In this document: piece by piece, positions 9,442 through 25,999 of the stretch
Numbering within the stretch: position 1 is the first letter of the stretch
Layout: every line of letters begins with the position of its first letter
Source of the DNA: a virus
DNA length: 29,847 nt
Direction: 5' to 3' (one strand)
Virus record (IMG/VR): IMGVR_UViG_3300036846_001605
Coordinates: 1-29,847 of that record
Position numbers and translations under genes: made by a program
Notes under the pieces: generated by a model
Seen by the model: only the letters and a program-made list of their open reading frames with translations
The model's database searches: none
Told to the model about the DNA's origin: nothing

Positions 9442-9767
9442 AGCTGCACCCCCGCCGAAATAACGCCAAACTCTTCCGTTTCAGCCGTCACCCAAAGACG
9501 CGCGCGGCTTTCTTCTGAAACTGCCACCGTACCCGCGACAATGCGCACGTCGCTTTCAACCAACAATTCAAGCTGCGTAAAAATATCAGCGCGCAGTGTC
9601 GGGCTGCGTTCAGCAATCAGCTCCGTTGCAAGCCCGCTTTCCAGAATTGAGTGAACAATATCCTGCCCGATGCTTTGCCGGTTATTGCACAGCTCTGGCT
9701 CTTTACCTGTGTTCAGTAAAAAATCATCAGACTCAATTAACAGGTCGATATATAACATTTCACTCAT
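9438..9767 (-). CDS. Baseplate protein, DUF2590 (gpW/gp25-like)
   Basis: A 109-residue protein of the DUF2590 family found in HP1-type phages. Its position directly before J and its size match the gp25/gpW sheath-initiator protein of the baseplate. The open frame extends to 9785, but the ATG at 9767 is preferred: it overlaps the tape measure stop as ATGA and has AGGAG about 8 bases upstream. The chain begins with an acidic stretch and ends in a beta-rich part. The precise biochemical role is inferred from order, not from active-site residues. Confidence 0.8.
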   Translation of the reverse strand: MSEMLYIDLLIESDDFLLNTGKEPELCNNRQSIGQDIVHSILESGLATELIAERSPTLRADIFTQLELLVESDVRIVAGTVAVSEESRARLWVTAETEEFGVISAGVQL

Positions 9768-11779
9768 GGGTTTAACTCCTGCCATTCCATTAGCTGCCCT
9801 GGCGTTAACATTTCTTTCGGGTAAATATTTACCGTGCCAACTTTTCTGCTGTTATCCGTCACAGATTTAGAATTGCTGCTGATGGCTTTATTTATTCCGC
9901 CCCGGTCAATATCTTTTACCGTGCCACCGGTTAATAAATTATTTTGCACCACAGATGGCGAAGGAGTCATATCAGGGAAAGATGGCATAGCCGTCTTTGG
10001 CAATTGTGGCGAGTCGCCAGCAACCTTAATATCCACACCAGGGATTTTATTCAGCTTTTCTACAATCCAGTTCCATGACTTAAGAAAGCTACCTTTAATT
10101 GATTCCCAGACATTATCGAACATATTGATAATGCCGGTAGCCATGCCATTTAATGCCTGCGAAGGTGAAAAGCTTGTAAGTAAAATAATAAATCTGTTCC
10201 AGCCATTGGCTATTGATTCCCATACGGAGCTAAAGACGCCGCCCAGCCACTCAATCACACCGGCAACGGATTTAAATGCTTCCGTATTCATCACGGCAGC
10301 TTTGATTGCGTCCCAGTGCTTCACAAGCAAATAACAGCCCACAACCAGCGCCGCTATTGCCGCGATGATCAGGAGGATTGGCCAGCTCATAAAGTTAATT
10401 GCCGCGCCGGTAAGCATTGCCTGCATTCGCAATGCCATTAGCACACCGCGCAAACCTCTCATTGCCGCAGCCCAAACCAGCTTCGCTTTGGTGTTAAGCC
10501 ACGTCCAGGCAGTATCAATTTTGGTAACTGTCGTGAGTAACTTCCAGACTCCAGTCCAGCCCATCATGATGAACTTAGAAACACCCATCACTATGTTAGC
10601 GATTGCCCCTACGGCGGCAAAACTTAACAGTGCCATCGCTGCATAGCCCACCACGCGGGCGATGTTAGGAAACATCTGCATCCAGCGGGCAAAGGTCTGC
10701 CCCATGTTTGCCAGACGGTTAAGCATGGGATACAGCACAGGTATCAGTGTCAAACCAATAACGGTCTGGATAGCCTTCAGAATAGCAACGAAGCGATCCC
10801 ATGGCTTTACCAGCTTAGTGGCCATTTCCTGGGTGCGTTTCAGACCATCTGAACCGCCCAGCTCTGTGATATTGCGCTGGAGCAACCCTACATTGCCGTA
10901 TAGCTGCTTAACCACGGCTGAACTATCACCAAAAGCGGCATCAAGTTCAGCCTGGGCTTTCAGGTTCCCTTCCAGACTCTTGCCATACTTACCCTGAAGC
11001 TTGATAAGCATTTCAGGCATGGAGAGCATTTTTCCGGTGGAATCGGTAAACGACAAGCCCAGCTTTTTAGCCCCATCAATCGCGCCGGTCATGAAGCCTT
11101 CGTATGCGCTGCTGGCTTCCGTCCCAAGCGTGCGCTGAAGCTGCCCCAGCACGGCCAACTGCTCATCCAGCCCGATATCATAGTTAGAACCCACACCGCG
11201 CGCGCCTTCCATAAGGTCTTTTATCTGGCCCATTTCCGTGCCAAACGTCTGGCGCATGTACACCATCTTGCCAGCCAGCTGCTCAGCAAACGGGACTTTG
11301 CCCACTGCATCGGCTTCCCGCTTAAAGTTACCGAACATTTGGCCCATAAACTCGCTGGTTTCGGCGGCGGTAGACTTCATAGCAAAAGCCAGCGTATTGG
11401 CTACTGTCGTCACCTTCGGCAGCTCCTGGCTGCTTAGCCCAGCAATAGCGGCATTAATATCCTGCGTGGACTGCACAAAAGCCACGGCGCTGGTTCCGTA
11501 TGTCGTGCTGAAGCGAAGGGCATCACGTTGCACCGTTTTTAACGCCGTGCTGTCGATACCCCGCGCCGCGGCCTCATTCACTGCGTCATACATTTCAATG
11601 GCAGGAGACAATGCCCCTTTAATTGCCATGGCGGTAGCGGCAAGCGCCAGTACACCCCCGCCTATTTGTTTAAAGGCGGCTTTTGATTTATCGGCAAAGT
11701 TACTTACGCTGCCCTGGGCTTGTTTCAGGGGGCGCGTTAATTTGTCGATAAGGCTTAATGTAAATTCAAGCTGTTTCAT
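9764..11779 (-). CDS. Tail tape measure protein
   Basis: A 671-residue protein that sets tail length and is ejected ahead of the DNA. The N-terminal 330 residues carry the TP901-type tape measure core, including a conserved region around GVGSNYDIGLDEQLAVLGQL. Hydrophobic segments at about residues 40-60, 370-405 and 455-480 are typical of the part that inserts into the host membrane. Its length is in line with the short tails of this group. It overlaps the frameshift extension of the tail chaperone by 4 bases upstream and the DUF2590 gene by 4 bases downstream. Confidence 0.93.
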   Translation of the reverse strand: MKQLEFTLSLIDKLTRPLKQAQGSVSNFADKSKAAFKQIGGGVLALAATAMAIKGALSPAIEMYDAVNEAAARGIDSTALKTVQRDALRFSTTYGTSAVAFVQSTQDINAAIAGLSSQELPKVTTVANTLAFAMKSTAAETSEFMGQMFGNFKREADAVGKVPFAEQLAGKMVYMRQTFGTEMGQIKDLMEGARGVGSNYDIGLDEQLAVLGQLQRTLGTEASSAYEGFMTGAIDGAKKLGLSFTDSTGKMLSMPEMLIKLQGKYGKSLEGNLKAQAELDAAFGDSSAVVKQLYGNVGLLQRNITELGGSDGLKRTQEMATKLVKPWDRFVAILKAIQTVIGLTLIPVLYPMLNRLANMGQTFARWMQMFPNIARVVGYAAMALLSFAAVGAIANIVMGVSKFIMMGWTGVWKLLTTVTKIDTAWTWLNTKAKLVWAAAMRGLRGVLMALRMQAMLTGAAINFMSWPILLIIAAIAALVVGCYLLVKHWDAIKAAVMNTEAFKSVAGVIEWLGGVFSSVWESIANGWNRFIILLTSFSPSQALNGMATGIINMFDNVWESIKGSFLKSWNWIVEKLNKIPGVDIKVAGDSPQLPKTAMPSFPDMTPSPSVVQNNLLTGGTVKDIDRGGINKAISSNSKSVTDNSRKVGTVNIYPKEMLTPGQLMEWQELNP

Positions 11780-11970
11780 TCAGTGCCTTTAAATGCCGTG
11801 CCGATACCGCTGGCAATTGCCAGACGCGTATATTCCCAATAACGATTATCCAGCCAGATAGCTGCGGCAATATCATCCGCATTATCTTCACCCTGGGGGA
11901 GATAATGACGCCGCAATATTAAGTATTGTTCCAGTCCGTTGTTATCTATTGCGCGCACCCGCGCCGTTAG
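11776..11970 (-). CDS. Frameshift extension of the tail assembly chaperone
   Basis: A 64-codon frame that continues the chaperone in the -1 frame. It follows the slippery sequence at 11970-11976 without a stop and ends 4 bases inside the tape measure gene (ATGA-type overlap). The only independent start, a GTG at 11958, lies in the loop of a G/C hairpin and has no ribosome-binding site, so the frame is probably made only as a fusion of about 149 residues with the upstream chaperone. This is the equivalent of the T part of lambda gpGT and of P2 E-prime. The part carries a Trp/Tyr-rich helix (AAAIWLDNRYWEYTRLA) suited to binding the tape measure protein. The 60-residue GTG-started form may be annotated elsewhere as a separate small protein. 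Confidence 0.8.
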   Translation of the reverse strand, partial: LTARVRAIDNNGLEQYLILRRHYLPQGEDNADDIAAAIWLDNRYWEYTRLAIASGIGTAFKGTE

Positions 11971-11976
11971 TTTTTT
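11951..11976 (-). other. Programmed -1 ribosomal frameshift signal
   Basis: Reading the minus strand, the chaperone codons GTA AAA AAC are followed by the stop TAA. This places the heptamer A-AAA-AAC exactly in the X-XXY-YYZ register. Five bases after the heptamer a hairpin GCGCG-GGTG-CGCGC (11964-11951) begins, which is the usual spacing for a stimulatory structure. Slipping back one base continues with CTA ACG GCG and stays open for 64 codons. Confidence 0.85.
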
Positions 11977-12224
11977 ACTTCAATCTCCAGCTCAGGGGCA
12001 TAAATTTCATTCACTTTTCCCGCCAGTTGAATAGCAGCGCCGGGACGTTTTAAAATTTCCGTCAGTGCTTCTTTGGTATCAACCGAAACAATACGCATCA
12101 GATAATTGTGCGCAGGGGCAACTTTGTTATCCATCGCCATTTCATTAATAAACTTATTGTACGCAGATTGATTAGGCTCCAGACAAATATCAATACCGGC
12201 AATAGCTAATTTAATCTTTTCCAT
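11967..12224 (-). CDS. Tail assembly chaperone
   Basis: An 85-residue acidic/helical protein directly upstream of the tape measure gene. Its position, size and frameshift into the following frame match the G-type tail assembly chaperones that coat the tape measure protein during tail polymerisation. It ends in EIEVKN, the last two codons being the slippery site. The ATG at 12224 lies 14 bases inside the Rz1 gene, with a GAGAG sequence upstream. The family is recognised by context more than by sequence. Confidence 0.78.
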   Translation of the reverse strand: MEKIKLAIAGIDICLEPNQSAYNKFINEMAMDNKVAPAHNYLMRIVSVDTKEALTEILKRPGAAIQLAGKVNEIYAPELEIEVKN

Positions 12225-12522
12225 TTAATATACTCTCTCTTAAGTTAATTTCGTCAACCAGCTGGTTATGCCTTACGGCACACTGGCCATACATATCCAG
12301 ATAAATAATAAGTAGGTCTGCCGCGCTATTGCCCTGATTGCCCTTCAGGCGCGGCAGCTGCGCGGGGCATTTTGTTTTCAGGTTTTCCTGATAACGCACG
12401 TTCGACTTTGGCGGCGGCGTCGTTGTACATGCTGACAAACTCAGCAGACAGGCAAACATTGGTAAAGACCGGCTTAACAAGCTCTGTGCGGATCTCCCGC
12501 GCTGGCGCGTTCCGTATTTCAT
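12211..12522 (-). CDS. Rz1: Outer-membrane spanin lipoprotein (Rz1)
   Basis: A 103-residue lipoprotein that bridges from the outer membrane to Rz and disrupts that membrane in the last step of lysis. A lipobox LSAC (Cys32) follows a hydrophobic stretch, and the mature part begins TTTPPPK, the proline-rich start usual for Rz1. The ATG at 12522 has AAGGA about 8 bases upstream; an internal ATG at 12459 (residue 22) would give a shorter signal peptide but lacks a ribosome-binding site. The start lies within the Rz gene in another frame, with an overlap of about 197 bases, and the C-terminal part extends beyond it. Confidence 0.85.
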   Translation of the reverse strand: MKYGTRQRGRSAQSLLSRSLPMFACLLSLSACTTTPPPKSNVRYQENLKTKCPAQLPRLKGNQGNSAADLLIIYLDMYGQCAVRHNQLVDEINLRESILNGKD

Positions 12523-12703
12523 CCAGTTTTCCTTCCAGTAACCGGCCTGAATGGCTGGCGATCAACTCCATCTTTTTGCCAGTGGCGCTGGCGCTTCGTT
12601 CAATAACCAGCTCCAGACTATCCCTCTGCCAGATGGCAACCTTCCAGCCCGACAGAAAAGCCAGCGCAAGCGCCCCAATGGCCAGCAAAACGGCGCGATT
12701 CAT
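12326..12703 (-). CDS. Rz: Inner-membrane spanin (Rz-like)
   Basis: A 125-residue protein with an N-terminal membrane anchor (about residues 4-22) followed by a charged helical, coiled-coil-like periplasmic domain, the form of an i-spanin. It spans the periplasm and pairs with the Rz1 lipoprotein encoded within and past its own end. The start codon shares a base with the endolysin stop (TGATG). The order holin, endolysin, Rz, Rz1 is complete. Assignment is by topology, size and context. Confidence 0.82.
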   Translation of the reverse strand: MNRAVLLAIGALALAFLSGWKVAIWQRDSLELVIERSASATGKKMELIASHSGRLLEGKLDEIRNAPAREIRTELVKPVFTNVCLSAEFVSMYNDAAAKVERALSGKPENKMPRAAAAPEGQSGQ

Positions 12704-13345: not shown

Positions 13346-13801
13346 TTACCCGATCAGGTTTTCAGTGGCTTCCGCTTCCAGATATGGAATGCCGTTAATC
13401 TTCACGAACTCCGGACTGGTCACGAAGTATTTAATTTTGTGCGTGGTAATGCTGCCGCCCTTCGGATCAACATCCAGAATATTGTTCAGTTGCAGCTTGC
13501 AGCCGAATGCCTCCACCTTCATTTCCTCATTGCCCGCTTTGGCATAGAAAAGAAAATCCTGTGGCTCAACACCCCGCCACGAACCGGCGCGGCGGGCCAG
13601 GCCGGTGACAATTGATAACGCCTTGGTGCTCAGTTCAATTTCACCTTCGGCGGCAACGTCACCATCAACATGGCCATCGGGTACACCACGGGTTTGTGCT
13701 GCGGCGCTGTTATCCGTGATATCCAGGCTGATTTTCTCAACGTGGATCAGCTGGCCACCCATATGGGTATCAAACGACATACCCGAAATTCGTTTAGTCA
13801 T
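13346..13801 (-). CDS. Tail tube protein (DUF2597)
   Basis: A 151-residue beta-rich protein of the DUF2597 family. It follows the sheath gene with an ATGA overlap and, by gene order and size, is the inner tube subunit. The N-terminus reads SGMSFDTHMGGQLIHVEKIS, with the pattern usual in phage tube proteins of hydrophobic strands and a conserved Gly. P2 gpFII is the functional counterpart, but sequence resemblance is to the HP1/K139 branch. Confidence 0.82.
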   Translation of the reverse strand: MTKRISGMSFDTHMGGQLIHVEKISLDITDNSAAAQTRGVPDGHVDGDVAAEGEIELSTKALSIVTGLARRAGSWRGVEPQDFLFYAKAGNEEMKVEAFGCKLQLNNILDVDPKGGSITTHKIKYFVTSPEFVKINGIPYLEAEATENLIG

Positions 13802-14925
13802 GCGCTTGCCTCCAGGCTGGCATCCAGTAACAGGCTGATCGTGATTTGCAGTGGCACTTCATAAGTGCGCAACACCATATAAATCTCTACAGCCTTTTTA
13901 TTTTTCCAGACAATCGATACGTCGCCATCCTGCGGAGACTTCACCTCGCCCGGAAACGTCACGCCGTTAATGGCTGAACTCACCGACATTTCCCGCAGCG
14001 GCTTCGCAAAAAGCTGCTCATGCGCGGCAATGCTGGAAGGTGTACTGTTCAGCGAACGATCCGCGATATGCGCAATCGCCAGCAGTCGCACACGGCGGGC
14101 CGCTTTATCGGCAATACGCAGCGTTTCAATGCTCTGATAATCGCCGCCCTCAACATCCAGCGTGCGGCCATCTGACCAGTACAGCCCATCGTAATCTGGG
14201 TACCACATCGGTACACTGAAGCGCTGCGCCTCCAGCGCCTGGAGTGTTGCCAGCTCCAGTGGAACACCGGAACCATCCAGCGGGGTTTCGTCACTGCCCA
14301 TGCTGATTAGCGCGCCGGTTTTAACCCTGGCCGGGCTATCGGCAATGGTCACTGCACGACTGCATAAACGCCCCGCAAGCACGCCCGGTTCATTGCCCCA
14401 CAGGCGGGGAACCAGCTGTACCGCCTTTTCAGCAATGCCATCCTGAAGCGTGGCCAGGCGCGCCAGATAATCGGCCTGCCCTTCTTCGTCCTGAATACCC
14501 TGAACAGCAAGGAGGAACCATACCCAGCGGCCAAAGCGGGCAATCAGATTTGCGCGTAACGTTGCCGCCTTATTAATGGTTGCAGGCTCTGCGACATCAT
14601 CAGACAGCACCACCCCTTCTACCGAACAAGACAACTGCGCAGCTATAACGGCATCAACCCACGCATCCGGCTCACTATCGCCAGCCAGCACATGCACAAA
14701 GCCCCACCAGTTCTGGCCCGCATTAGCCTGAGCGGCAAGCACATCACGCTTTAACTGGCTGTCGCCCTCACCCAGAAGGGCATCAAAATCACTCTGGGTA
14801 TTCACGGCCAGCGTTTTCCCCACATTCACGGAACCCGTCCCGATAAACAGCACGGTGCGTTCAACTTCGTTAGTTTCGCCCAGCAGCTGGTTTATCTGGT
14901 TTACTGTCACATTCGGCCAGGTCAT
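13798..14925 (-). CDS. Tail sheath protein (DUF2586)
   Basis: A 375-residue protein of the DUF2586 family, the contractile sheath subunit of HP1-type phages. The N-terminus (MTWPNVTVNQINQL) and the run of alternating strands and helices fit sheath proteins. It overlaps both neighbours by ATGA junctions: tail completion protein S before and tube after. In P2 the equivalent is gpFI, but that sequence family is different. Confidence 0.83.
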   Translation of the reverse strand: MTWPNVTVNQINQLLGETNEVERTVLFIGTGSVNVGKTLAVNTQSDFDALLGEGDSQLKRDVLAAQANAGQNWWGFVHVLAGDSEPDAWVDAVIAAQLSCSVEGVVLSDDVAEPATINKAATLRANLIARFGRWVWFLLAVQGIQDEEGQADYLARLATLQDGIAEKAVQLVPRLWGNEPGVLAGRLCSRAVTIADSPARVKTGALISMGSDETPLDGSGVPLELATLQALEAQRFSVPMWYPDYDGLYWSDGRTLDVEGGDYQSIETLRIADKAARRVRLLAIAHIADRSLNSTPSSIAAHEQLFAKPLREMSVSSAINGVTFPGEVKSPQDGDVSIVWKNKKAVEIYMVLRTYEVPLQITISLLLDASLEASA

Positions 14926-19453: not shown

Positions 19454-21238
19454 GTGGCCAAATATTCGGAAGAACTCAAAGGCGTAGCGCGTTCGCTCTA
19501 TTTGCGCCGATGTACACCAAAGGAAATTGCCGGTGAACTGAATCTGCCCAATGCGCGGATCGTTTACTACTGGGCAGAAAAGCACAGCTGGGCGGATTTA
19601 CTCAGCCAGGAAAGCACGGAAGAAGCCATTGAACGCCGTTACCAGCTGCTGGCCAGCCGTGACGACAAGACAGAAACCGAACTCAAGGAAATGGAATTGC
19701 TGATTGCTCACGCCTGCAAGCTGCGGGCGCAAAGCAACAAGCATAAAGAGAAACTGGCCACAGCCGGGGCATACCCTGGAGCAGAAAGCCGCACTGGCGC
19801 GCCAGCTGATGAAGAGGACCGCAGGAAAAAAGGCAAATATAAAAAGAATGATATTTCATCGCTCACCCAGGAAGATTTTGACACCTGGGCAGATGAGCAC
19901 CTTTTCGGCTACCAGAAGCACCTGCGAAACAATTTAACCCAGCAAATCCGCAACATTCTGAAGTCACGCCAGATTGGTGCAACCTGGTATTTTGCGTTTG
20001 AGGCCTTCGAAAATGCGGTGCTGACCGGCGACCCGCAAATATTTCTTTCAGCGTCAAAAGCCCAGGCCGAGGTTTTCCGTTCTTACATAGTGAACATTGC
20101 AGAGCAGTATTTCGGCATCACGCTAACAGGCAACCCCATTCGTTTATCTAATGGCGCAGAGCTGCGATTTTTATCAACCAATAAAAATACCGCTCAATCT
20201 TACAGCGGTCATTTGTACTGCGATGAATATTTTTGGGTACCGAACTTCGCAAAACTGAACGAAGTGGCCAGCGCGATGGCCACACACGACAAATGGCGCA
20301 TTACCTATTTTTCTACGCCTTCGGCAAAAACGCATCAGGCCTACCCGTTCTGGACTGGCGAAGAATGGAAGCGCGGCAATAAAAAACGCGCTGCAGTTGA
20401 ATTTCCCGGCTTCAACCAGCTGCGCGACGGCGGCCGCATTTGCCCGGATGGACACTGGCGATACGTCATTACGATGGAGGATGCCATTGCGGGCGGCTTC
20501 AATCTGGCCAGCATCGATAAACTGCGGAACCGCTACAACACCGACACGTTCAACATGCTCTACATGTGCGTTTTCGTGGACAGTAAAGACTCGGTGTTTT
20601 CCTTCAACGACCTGGAGCAGTGCGCCGTTGATGTATCCGAATGGCAGGATCACAACCCGAACAAGCCGCGGCCCTTCGGTGATCGGCCCGTCTGGGGAGG
20701 CTTTGACCCGGCGCGGTCTGGCGACCTTTCATGTTTTGTGATTATCGCCCCGCCTGTTCTGGCCGTTGAGAAGTTCCGCGTACTGCGCATTTTCAACTGG
20801 AAAGGGATGAACTTCCGCTGGCAGGCAAAGCAGATAGAGAAGCTTTTCGGCCAGTACAACTTCACCTATCTGGGCGTTGACGTCACCGGGATCGGCCAGG
20901 GTGTCTTTGACAATATTCAGCACTTCGCCCTGCGCGTCATTGAGGCGATTCGCTATGACCGCAACACCAAAAACCAGCTGGTTTTAAAAGCCGCTGACGT
21001 GGTGGAGAGCCAGCGCATTGAATGGGATGAAGAGCTGAAGGAAATCCCGGCAAGCTTTATGTCCATTCGCCGCACAACAACGCAAAGCGGCGCGGCTATG
21101 ACCTTTGTAGCAGATCGTAGCCCTGAAACAGGTCACGCGGAATCAGCCTGGGCAATTATGCATGCCCTGCACAATGAGCCGCTGAACTATGAGAACAAAC
21201 CAAAATCCCGCTGGGGAACCACCAGGAAAGCAGCATGA
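19454..21238 (+). CDS. P: Terminase ATPase subunit (gpP)
   Basis: The 594-residue motor that drives DNA into the head. Residues 1-60 form an N-terminal helix-turn-helix. The deviant Walker A SRQIGAT is at 171-177 and Walker B LYCDEYF around Asp257/Glu258. The C-terminal RNase H-like nuclease shows Asp418 (GGFDPARSGD) and Asp476 (YLGVDVTGIG). The start is GTG, and the only purine-rich site (AAAAGGA) lies about 14 bases upstream, unusually far. An upstream 27-codon frame ending at 19447 may couple translation. The gene overlaps the portal start by 4 bases. Confidence 0.95.
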   Translation: MAKYSEELKGVARSLYLRRCTPKEIAGELNLPNARIVYYWAEKHSWADLLSQESTEEAIERRYQLLASRDDKTETELKEMELLIAHACKLRAQSNKHKEKLATAGAYPGAESRTGAPADEEDRRKKGKYKKNDISSLTQEDFDTWADEHLFGYQKHLRNNLTQQIRNILKSRQIGATWYFAFEAFENAVLTGDPQIFLSASKAQAEVFRSYIVNIAEQYFGITLTGNPIRLSNGAELRFLSTNKNTAQSYSGHLYCDEYFWVPNFAKLNEVASAMATHDKWRITYFSTPSAKTHQAYPFWTGEEWKRGNKKRAAVEFPGFNQLRDGGRICPDGHWRYVITMEDAIAGGFNLASIDKLRNRYNTDTFNMLYMCVFVDSKDSVFSFNDLEQCAVDVSEWQDHNPNKPRPFGDRPVWGGFDPARSGDLSCFVIIAPPVLAVEKFRVLRIFNWKGMNFRWQAKQIEKLFGQYNFTYLGVDVTGIGQGVFDNIQHFALRVIEAIRYDRNTKNQLVLKAADVVESQRIEWDEELKEIPASFMSIRRTTTQSGAAMTFVADRSPETGHAESAWAIMHALHNEPLNYENKPKSRWGTTRKAA

Positions 21239-22940: not shown

Positions 22941-24974
22941 CTATGACCAACCCGGCCACTGATCTGAAAGCGGTTCAATTTTACGTTCGATTAAGCGGCC
23001 ATCCCGATATATGAGTGTTTTTCCGCCACCTAACGACAAACCACTACCTCTAAAGAGTATTGCCAGCTCATCGGCTGAAGCATCAAACCCCCTTCGATTG
23101 AGTTCCAGTGTTAACCGCCTCCGGTTGCCCTCCGTACAGTTATTGACAGAACTCCAAGGGGCGGCGTTGCCGCCAGAAAAACCAGCCTCCGCTGGCGCTT
23201 CGGCCAACTTCGGCACCTTTTCCCACTTAACCAAACGTGTTACGACTTCAGAATCAGGAATCAAAGGCGAATAGATACCCTGGACGCGCTGCACGTCCTC
23301 CGCATATTCATTGCCCTGCTCTGTGATTTGGTAGGCGAGACGAACAACCAGATCCCGGCGCGCAACCAGCGCACCGCCCTGGGCTTGCGTGTAGGAAGCC
23401 CAGCAACCAACATCAGCCGCAGCCAGCACCGCATCCATACGTTTATCCGCTAACTGCTGATCGCCCAGGCGACGCAGCTCACGCCATACCGTCACCGGCG
23501 CGCCGCCAATCTGCTGAAACTGGCGAATTCGCCAGCGAGATGCCCACGCCGAAACAGCTTTGGCCATATCGCGCAGGCTCTCGCCCGTCTCGCCGTCCTT
23601 CTCGCCGTCCAGCGCATAGCCGTCGATATTTTTGGAGATGTACTTGGCGATATAGCCCGTGGCCGAACCCTTAGCAGGATCAATTGGCTCAACGTGAAAG
23701 CGCGCTTTTAGCGCCTGGGGGGTTTGTAGCTCTTCTGAATCAGCAATACGGGAGTGATAACAAAGAATATCTCGCACGGCCCCTACGTCCTGCGGGCGCA
23801 TAAATAGCAGCATATGCCAGTGCGGGGTACCGTCGTGGTGTGGCTCCACGACGCGAAAACCAAAGACATGTATACCTGCGCGGGAAAGCGCAGCGCGGGC
23901 CTTCGCCCAGACTCCACATAAATACTTTTGCGTTTCCTGTGGATTACTCCCGTTCCACTGGGAAACAAAACCACCTTTACTATGTACCGCATGATAACGG
24001 GAAGGTGCCGTGATGGTGTAGAACTCACCTGACAGATGCTGTTCATTTGCCATATCTTCAAAACCTCTCATTCTGACCATTAATTCAGACCGGCGAATTG
24101 CCGGATTTGAAAGGCTTTTGTAGACCATATCGGCCAGCGCTATCCGCTCACCCATATCGTTAATGAGATCGAACTTTTTAAAGAACTCAGCGTTGCGCTT
24201 CTTCTGCTCTAACCATTCGCCCAGGGTGCCACGTGAAACGTAGGCGCTGGCCGCTTTCTGCACCTGGCCTACGGCAATGGCCAGATGTTCACGCTGAACA
24301 TCGCGCATCCGCTTCAGCCGCCCATACCACCACTCAGGGGCCATCAGACGCAGCAGGCCGGATTCTGCCTTGCGCGTATCCAGCTCGTTCTCATTAGCCT
24401 GATACTCGGCCCAATAAGGCGGCTTGTTGCCCAACAGCAAGGAAAGATCGGCCAGGTGGCGGTAGCCCAGCAGGCTACGGCGGTGCATTTCGGCGGGGTC
24501 TTTGGTTGCGCCTTCAATGGCCGTTTCAGTAAAGGTATAAAACGACTCAGCCAGCCACATGGAAACCCGCGTGGCCAGCTTTTTGATTTCGAAGCGGTCC
24601 AGCGCGGGAAGCCGCTGGAGAGCTTTACCGAAAGGGAGATCGTCAACATCACCGGGCAGCTTATAGCGCGCCATGACATTGCGCAGGCGTGGCAATACAT
24701 TCTGGCCAATCGTCTGGCGTAAAAATGTATTGGCACGGCGACGCCCACCGCGAGGGGTGTTAAATATTTTCTCGTAGCGCTGGCCAAAATACCCGGCCAA
24801 CCAGTCGGGCATTTCGTGAATGTACTGCGAGCGGAAATCATGATCGGCTGGGTTGACCGTCCACAACTTCCGCTCTGTCAAAGTCACATCATTGGGAATA
24901 CCCGGTGCAAATGTTTCACGCCGCCAGCTATCGACGGCGTGATATTCACCCAGGGCAAGGGGCTGCTCACTCAC
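22941..24974 (-). CDS. A: Replication initiator endonuclease (gpA)
   Basis: A 677-residue protein of the P2 gpA family that nicks the phage origin, stays bound to the 5-prime end and starts rolling-circle replication. The HUH metal motif is His385-Trp-His387 within GTPHWHMLLF, and the catalytic tyrosine pair is Tyr441-x3-Tyr445 in TGYIAKYISKNID, as in P2. The length is slightly less than that of P2 gpA. The start is GTG at 24974, overlapping the preceding small gene by 8 bases. In P2 the origin lies within gene A; I cannot point to the nick site here. Confidence 0.95.
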   Translation of the reverse strand: MSEQPLALGEYHAVDSWRRETFAPGIPNDVTLTERKLWTVNPADHDFRSQYIHEMPDWLAGYFGQRYEKIFNTPRGGRRRANTFLRQTIGQNVLPRLRNVMARYKLPGDVDDLPFGKALQRLPALDRFEIKKLATRVSMWLAESFYTFTETAIEGATKDPAEMHRRSLLGYRHLADLSLLLGNKPPYWAEYQANENELDTRKAESGLLRLMAPEWWYGRLKRMRDVQREHLAIAVGQVQKAASAYVSRGTLGEWLEQKKRNAEFFKKFDLINDMGERIALADMVYKSLSNPAIRRSELMVRMRGFEDMANEQHLSGEFYTITAPSRYHAVHSKGGFVSQWNGSNPQETQKYLCGVWAKARAALSRAGIHVFGFRVVEPHHDGTPHWHMLLFMRPQDVGAVRDILCYHSRIADSEELQTPQALKARFHVEPIDPAKGSATGYIAKYISKNIDGYALDGEKDGETGESLRDMAKAVSAWASRWRIRQFQQIGGAPVTVWRELRRLGDQQLADKRMDAVLAAADVGCWASYTQAQGGALVARRDLVVRLAYQITEQGNEYAEDVQRVQGIYSPLIPDSEVVTRLVKWEKVPKLAEAPAEAGFSGGNAAPWSSVNNCTEGNRRRLTLELNRRGFDASADELAILFRGSGLSLGGGKTLIYRDGRLIERKIEPLSDQWPGWS

Positions 24975-25191
24975 TGCGGTTTACCCAGCCAATCCACCGC
25001 TCACCAGCCAGACAAAAGAGACTGCCCAGTAGGATTAAAGGCCAGACAACGGCCTGTACAACCGTGCTGCAATAGTCCCCAAAATCAGCATCTTTATTAC
25101 TTATTCGCTTCTCATGCCATGTGAAGCAGGCGAAGCAGATAACCGCGGCCACGATGTAGGAAGTGAAAACCAACAGTTCGGTATCAGACAT
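24967..25191 (-). CDS. Small membrane protein of the early operon
   Basis: A 74-residue protein with two hydrophobic segments (about residues 4-22 and 47-63) and a charged loop between them. The ATG at 25191 is preferred because GGAGG lies 7 bases upstream; the frame is open to 25257 but that part overlaps the methylase gene. It overlaps the methylase stop by 8 bases and the gpA start by 8 bases, so it is translated as a coupled member of the operon. I do not recognise a family. An exclusion or membrane-targeting function is possible but unsupported. Confidence 0.65.
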   Translation of the reverse strand: MSDTELLVFTSYIVAAVICFACFTWHEKRISNKDADFGDYCSTVVQAVVWPLILLGSLFCLAGERWIGWVNRSE

Positions 25192-25999
25192 GGGCCACCC
25201 TCCCACCAACGGCCAGCAACTCACCAACTGATGAGTCACCACCCTTGGCAGCGCCAATGCTGCGCGGAGCGGTTAACGTGTAGCGCTTAAAACGGGAATA
25301 AAGGTTGTGCGCCTCATGGGTATCGCTATTAGATACAACAACAGAGACATCCGCAGGCAGCTGCTGAAGCAAGCTGGCCAGCCGTAACTGATCGTCTTGC
25401 GTAAAGCCATCAGTGTGGTACTGGGTAAAGTTCGCAGTCGGGTTTAACGGGATGTATGGCGGATCGCAATAAACGACATCCCCAGGGCGTACCATTTGCA
25501 GGGTTTCTTCAAAGCTGGCGCAGATGAACGTAGCCCGTTTTGCCTTCTCCGCAAAAGCGCGGATCTCATCTTCAGGGAAATAGGGCTTTTTATAACGGCC
25601 AAACGGCACGTTGAAATGCCCGCGCTGGTTGTAGCGGCAAATACCGCCATAACAATGGCGATTAAGATAGAGGAACATTGCAGCGCGCCACTGCCACTCA
25701 GACTCAACATTAAAACTTGCGCGCAGCTGGTAGTAAGAGCATTCGGTTGTCATGACTTCAAACAACCGCCTGGTATCGTCAATAAACCAGTCAACATCGA
25801 GCTGGATGCTGTTATAAAGGTGAATCAAATCAGGATTTACGTCAGCAATCAGATACTCGTCATAATCAGTATTCATCATGACAGCACACGAACCAGCGAA
25901 CGGCTCAACCAGCCTTTTGCCTTTTGGCAGATGGGGAAGCAGCTGCGGCATAAGGCGGGCTTTGCTGCCCACCCATTTTAAAGGGGTTTTCATTGCCAT
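25184..25999 (-). CDS. DNA adenine methylase (Dam-like, D12 class)
   Basis: A 271-residue N6-adenine methyltransferase of the D12/Dam class. The SAM-binding motif FAGSCAV is at 34-40, preceded by the family start LKWVGSKARLMPQLLPHLP, and the catalytic DPPY is at 179-182. Most members of this class that are carried by phages act on GATC, protecting against restriction or tuning replication and the lysogeny switch; the target here cannot be read from sequence. AAGG lies about 9 bases before the ATG at 25999. It overlaps both neighbours by 8-10 bases. Confidence 0.93.
   Translation of the reverse strand: MAMKTPLKWVGSKARLMPQLLPHLPKGKRLVEPFAGSCAVMMNTDYDEYLIADVNPDLIHLYNSIQLDVDWFIDDTRRLFEVMTTECSYYQLRASFNVESEWQWRAAMFLYLNRHCYGGICRYNQRGHFNVPFGRYKKPYFPEDEIRAFAEKAKRATFICASFEETLQMVRPGDVVYCDPPYIPLNPTANFTQYHTDGFTQDDQLRLASLLQQLPADVSVVVSNSDTHEAHNLYSRFKRYTLTAPRSIGAAKGGDSSVGELLAVGGRVAHV

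Follow-up and report, generated by a model that had tools for sequence, protein, structure and literature searches.

Probable programmed −1 ribosomal frameshifting between a tail assembly chaperone gene and a DUF6890-encoding frame in HP1-type phages

How is an open frame translated when it lies between a tail assembly chaperone gene and a tape measure gene? This question is raised by the virus record IMGVR_UViG_3300036846_001605 from IMG/VR, of which we analyzed positions 1 to 29,847 (29,847 nucleotides, hereafter the window). The window is an HP1-type prophage, and a preliminary description, made from the letters and their open reading frames, had proposed that a −1 frameshift signal at the end of the chaperone gene fuses the chaperone to the frame that follows.

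The tail cassette and its two overlapping frames

On the minus strand of the window, the genes follow each other in the order sheath, tube, holin, endolysin, Rz/Rz1-like genes, chaperone, second frame, and tape measure (Table 1). This is the layout of a cassette of the G/GT or E/E' type, with the tube and sheath genes upstream, followed by the chaperone, the −1 frame, and the tape measure gene, and with lysis genes between the tube and the chaperone, which is their place in HP1-group phages; in P2, the lysis cassette has a different position. The Rz-like gene occupies positions 12326-12703 (−), and the Rz1-like frame (12211-12522, −) begins inside it and extends 14 bases into the start of the chaperone gene. 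Outside the tail cluster, a D12-class adenine methyltransferase gene (Dam-like; 25184-25999, −) adjoins the gene for the replication gene A protein (22941-24974), and the left end of the window carries 2 plus-strand genes (1-498 and 528-1295), possibly lysogeny cargo; the product of one matches a zinc ribbon with a score under the cut-off, and that of the other looks hydrophobic and has no Pfam match.

Table 1. Features of the tail locus in the window.
Feature	Position	Strand	Basis or remark
Tail sheath	13798-14925	−	
Tail tube, Pfam "Bacteriophage HP1, Orf24"	13346-13801	−	PF10772
Tail assembly chaperone, zero-frame product (85 aa), lambda gpG / P2 gpE analogue	11967-12224	−	PF10963, phrog_1214
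GGAG, Shine-Dalgarno-like tetramer, 8 nt upstream of the heptamer	11985-11988	−	Direct reading; weak, possible stimulator
−1 slippery heptamer A_AAA_AAC (codons GTA AAA AAC)	11970-11976	−	Direct reading
Zero-frame stop TAA, abutting the heptamer	11967-11969	−	Direct reading
−1 frame extension, 64 codons and stop, contains DUF6890	11776-11970	−	Translation; PF21830
Small GC stem-loop GCGCG-GGUG-CGCGC, 5 nt after the heptamer	11951-11964	−	Fold −9.6 kcal/mol; no statistical support as stimulator
Decayed counterpart of the long-loop hairpin, 6 of 8 pairs	11931-11961 (arms 11961-11954 and 11938-11931)	−	Alignment columns
Tail tape measure protein	9764-11779	−	Pfam PF10145, E 4e-22; phrog_28 tape measure

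The chaperone frame (12224-11967) encodes 85 amino acids and ends in GAA GTA AAA AAC TAA. Its product matches Pfam family PF10963 (Phage_TAC_10) with 119.4 bits (cut-off 25.7; E 7e-35) over residues 4-85, spanning the model in full (positions 1-82 of 82), and a comparison with solved structures gave no credible match (best E 0.53). In the chaperone family, the annotated start of K139 orf30 (L006:426-1004) lies far upstream of the usual one, which suggests that this start is mis-set. Direct reading bore out the description of the signal itself: the heptamer AAAAAAC (11976-11970) stands in the X_XXY_YYZ register, correct for a −1 shift, and is followed immediately by the TAA of the 85-codon chaperone (11969-11967). 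The word as such is not rare in the window, with 11 copies observed and 9.0 expected; thus, any claim for it must rest on position, register, and conservation. The Shine-Dalgarno-like tetramer upstream was rejected as a conserved internal stimulator: the same interval holds GGAG in 31 and GGAA in 110 of 221 relatives (see below), and AGGAG or GGAGG in none.

Read from 11970, the −1 frame begins with LTARVRAIDNNGLEQ... and continues for 64 codons to a stop at 11778-11776; translation thereby confirmed that it is open up to the tape measure gene, the ATG of which (at 11779) overlaps the TGA stop in an ATGA. The second frame matches Pfam family PF21830 (DUF6890) with 76.3 bits (cut-off 23.6) over residues 19-62, covering all 44 model positions (1-44), and the same domain was detected in all 7 named relatives tested. 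We found no paper naming DUF6890 in a literature search. A shift at the heptamer would yield a fusion protein of approximately 149 aa, with the predicted junction (marked by a slash) ...EIEVKN/LTARVRAID....

Conservation of the heptamer, its codons and the second frame

Relatives were gathered with chaperone queries, used as close single queries, in viral contigs and genomes and supplemented with named phages, giving 221 sequences distinct over 280 nt. A −1 slippery heptamer in register is present in 217 of them: AAAAAAC directly before the stop in 153, AAAAAAA directly before the stop in 34, GGGAAAA directly before the stop in 1 (L281), and AAAAAAA 7 codons before the stop in 28 and 12 codons before it in 1. 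Heptamer and stop thus abut in 188 of the 221 relatives, so that this abutment, which had been taken for a special compact version of the signal, is the rule of the family. In the group nearest to the window, 84 of 86 sequences read exactly GTA AAA AAC, and among relatives retrieved with only the −1 frame as the query, AAAAAAC abuts the stop in every case (65/65). The frames join at the same base as in the window, in the −1 sense, in HP1, HP2, ESSI-2-type phages, phiO18P, SI7, K139, and many others, with AAAAAAC directly before the stop in HP2, K139, phiO18P, SI7, and ESSI2_ev239. Loss of the heptamer in relatives that keep both frames, named beforehand as the observation that would speak against frameshifting, is therefore not the pattern seen in the family, including HP2, K139, phiO18P, and many enterobacterial relatives. 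Of the 4 sequences without a heptamer, 3 (L107, L263, and L264) retain the two frames and have A_AAG, known as a shifty tetramer in E. coli, where the heptamer would be; L107 is a locus from a metagenome-assembled genome with 53% chaperone identity, in which the heptamer is lost and the second frame kept. In the fourth, the Vibrio-type L139 (approximately L139:1501-1950), 8 A residues leave the chaperone open straight into the DUF6890 frame, reflecting either a homopolymer sequencing error or a fixed constitutive fusion.

A lysine-asparagine C-terminus is common in the chaperone family, and AAA AAC might accordingly be kept for amino-acid or codon-usage reasons, with the second frame as a decayed remnant and no programmed event at all. 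Codon counts, conditioned only on chaperones with a final Asn (n = 153), speak against this. The 3 last codons are GTA in 150, AAA in 153, and AAC in 153 of these genes, whereas elsewhere in the same genes Asn is encoded by AAT (326) and AAC (291) in the 617 codons, Lys by AAA (452) and AAG (216), and Val by all 4 codons, of which GTA is the least used (92/567). A change of the last heptamer base from C to T is silent in both frames (AAC to AAT, Asn; CTA to TTA or CTG to TTG, Leu) and yet occurs in none of the 153 sequences; for this reason, selection on amino acids cannot explain the frozen AAC, whereas selection on slippage can. Furthermore, the supposed remnant extends for approximately 55-65 codons beyond the stop and is conserved among HP1-group phages whose hosts belong to several bacterial families. 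We regard a non-programmed origin of the motif as the least probable of the readings considered.

The second frame has no conserved start of its own, and its protein is conserved from the slip site onward. Directly behind the heptamer, −1 codons 2-15 of the near group vary by 0.08, 0.15, and 0.38 at codon positions 1, 2, and 3, respectively, and the phiO18P and HP2 groups show a similar third-position bias, indicating that the residues of the −1 frame are conserved from the slip site on, ahead of any start. ATG is absent from the −1 frame in 104 of the 221 relatives, and the first ATG, GTG, or TTG is scattered over codon offsets 3 to 57. These observations bear on the possibility that the second frame stands alone as a small gene, translated by re-initiation past the chaperone stop at the GTG at 11958 or at the TTG of codon 19. 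The window does have this GTG (−1 codon 5) only 8 bases past the stop, and RefSeq-style records call a short protein here, such as an E. coli DUF6890 protein of fewer than 30 codons. The first start falls at the GTG codon in no more than 15 of the 221 relatives, however, and a separate gene would leave both the residues conserved ahead of any start and the frozen synonymous bases of the heptamer unexplained, making re-initiation very improbable. The earlier view that the frame lacks a usable start holds in the sense that no start is conserved among the 221 relatives; the GTG is not the only alternative, given the in-frame TTG.

Runs of 6-7 A residues also invite the idea that RNA polymerase adds or drops an A, so that a mixed population of mRNAs encodes the fusion; 7 A residues occur in many Vibrio and Pseudoalteromonas-type relatives, and L139, with its 8, is an in-frame fusion. 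In the window and in 153 relatives, however, the run comprises only 6 A residues followed by C, and 6 is short for polymerase slippage; GGGAAAA in L281 contains no long run, and L139 may be a sequencing error. In addition, the requirement for codon register and a covarying downstream hairpin (next section) fit slippage of the ribosome rather than of the polymerase, and we consider transcriptional slippage even less probable than re-initiation.

Programmed −1 ribosomal frameshifting in the tail-assembly operon, analogous to lambda G/GT and P2 E/E', is the best explanation and, in our judgement, very probably the correct one, in view of the heptamer in 217 of 221 relatives, the frozen synonymous positions within it, the lack of a conserved start in the −1 frame, and the conservation of that frame's residues beginning at the slip site. 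Counting against it are the downstream structure of the window, which is at chance level (see below), the relative weakness of A_AAA_AAC as a shift site in E. coli, and L107, where the second frame is kept without the heptamer.

Hairpins downstream of the heptamer

In phages, a stimulatory RNA structure downstream of the slip site is an optional part of such a cassette. The GC hairpin described after a 5-base spacer is present in the window (11964-11951), with a 5-bp stem and a GGUG loop, but as a selected stimulator it stays within chance: 27 of 200 shuffles fold equally well or better, and 248 of 500 synonymous recodings over 49 nt are as stable. When recoding was confined to the first 17-26 nt, 5.8-8.8% of the recodings were as stable, which is marginal. 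Within the near group, the small stem is common only to the window, L090, L010, and L103. The compact stem of L103 has 6 bp and is equaled by at most 0.4% of local synonymous recodings, but 29 of 200 shuffles of 50 nt are as good.

Near relatives share a different structure, an 8-bp hairpin (CGAGUCCR...YGGACUCG) with a loop of approximately 15 nt that begins 8 nt after the heptamer and is found in 51 of 57 distinct near-group sequences. Its arms correspond to columns 15-22 and 38-45 of a 60-nt segment, and a sequence was counted when 7-8 of the 8 positions pair. For L001 and L007, none of 200 shuffles folds as well as this long-loop hairpin; where the stem is made up of uninterrupted Watson-Crick pairs, the hairpin mostly outdoes 96-99% of synonymous recodings, and it does less well against recoding where it contains G-U pairs or lies in a GC-rich codon context. 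The innermost pair is G-C in some sequences and A-U in others. On a tree for which the bases of this pair were left out, 6 and 5 changes fall on its 2 sites and 7 on the pair state, so that most of the changes were joint; one of the 2 sites is a synonymous third position. Shifting the arms by 1 to 3 bases lowers the pairing from 0.98 to 0.40 or less.

Only 6 of the 8 pairs can form in the window, L090, and L010, which constitute one clade (support 0.99), and in L103. Judged by these arms, the sublineage of the window has lost the long-loop hairpin. This raises the tentative idea, to which we give rather little credence, that the stimulator was exchanged within one phage lineage: the long-loop hairpin at 8 nt would have decayed, and the compact GC stem-loop at 5 nt would have replaced it in the clade to which the window belongs, while the heptamer stayed as it was. 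If true, such an exchange would be a natural experiment in how a phage retunes the ratio of chaperone to fusion. Separately, a hairpin with 7 bp and a loop of 3 nt (TGCCCTGATTCAGGGCA) follows the stop in Vibrio phage PV94 (L003:1262-1300), and 10 of 500 recodings are as stable; it is a candidate for a third, unrelated-looking stimulator in the same gene.

Proposed mechanism, known systems and annotation

By the proposed mechanism, most ribosomes would read GTA AAA AAC TAA and release the 85-aa, G/E-like chaperone, whereas on a minority the 2 tRNAs on A_AAA_AAC would slip back by one base to AAA AAA, bypass the stop, and add the 64-residue, DUF6890-containing extension, giving a fusion of the G-T or E-E' type. 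Slippage in the phage of the window is itself inferred from sequence, and its frequency would, by analogy, be a few to ten per cent. If assembly proceeds as in lambda, the short form may coat the tape measure protein, the rarer fusion may recruit tail-tube subunits, and both would leave the finished tail. Of the two sites A_AAA_AAC and A_AAA_AAG, the former is the less effective in E. coli (PMC5009743); this weakness would be consistent with a low set-point that the neighboring stop and a downstream hairpin adjust. The adjacent stop and, in most relatives, the long-loop hairpin probably tune the slippage rate; in the window, where the latter is degraded, the small GC hairpin may or may not substitute for it.

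Comparison across the HP1 group strongly supports the likeness to the lambda and P2 arrangements that had been drawn at the outset. The slippery heptamer of lambda is GGGAAAG, unlike A_AAA_AAC here, and its protein families differ from those of the window. As proposed for the window, lambda makes a short chaperone together with a less abundant form extended in the −1 frame, encoded ahead of the tape measure gene (PMC5009743). P2 belongs to the same family, Peduoviridae, and there too the tape measure gene immediately follows that of the chaperone; a −1 shift is annotated at base 19685 of its record, and its second frame likewise meets the tape measure start. The P2 heptamer, T_TTT_TTG, lies several codons before the E stop (PMC3091744), unlike the abutting A_AAA_AAC of the window, and no hairpin has been reported at the P2 E site. 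The chaperone has no detectable homology to P2 gpE (hhalign probability 0.3%, with a single P2 sequence); hence, the parallel in function is drawn from position and arrangement. The absence of homology agrees with the deep split between the tail modules of P2 and HP1 (PMC10612066).

The closest precedent is the HP1-group Pseudoalteromonas phage ACA1 (OR438928), in which gp36 and gp36a, from the same chaperone family, are curated as a joined −1 product, worded in the GenBank record as a "projected programmed frameshift analogous to that in phage P2". ACA1 has A_AAA_AAA with the stop 7 codons further on, whereas in the window the stop follows directly. ACA1 is also the exception to the expectation, otherwise borne out by the sampled records, that routine gene callers split the 2 frames. 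The records examined for HP1, HP2, K139, phiO18P, and ESSI-2-type phages, which have the same 2 frames, give either the short protein alone or a separate second-frame fragment, and where a separate protein is called it starts at various downstream points, which in E. coli leaves fewer than 30 codons. Public records thus give DUF6890 false or missing starts.

The arrangement has long been known from lambda and P2, and the case of this family had already been projected by the annotators of ACA1; a P2 paper of 2002 reportedly states its conservation among P2-related phages, and a literature search found no paper on frameshifting in HP1 itself. What is added here is the quantitative conservation, the DUF6890 assignment, and the covarying hairpin of the relatives. 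The general picture, established for lambda and P2 for many years, is unchanged. The results extend tail-chaperone frameshifting, with statistical support, to the HP1 half of the Peduoviridae and account for DUF6890, listed as a "family of unknown function", as the trans-frame part by which the TAC_10 chaperone is extended. With the covarying hairpin, the tuning of a weak heptamer can be tested cleanly.
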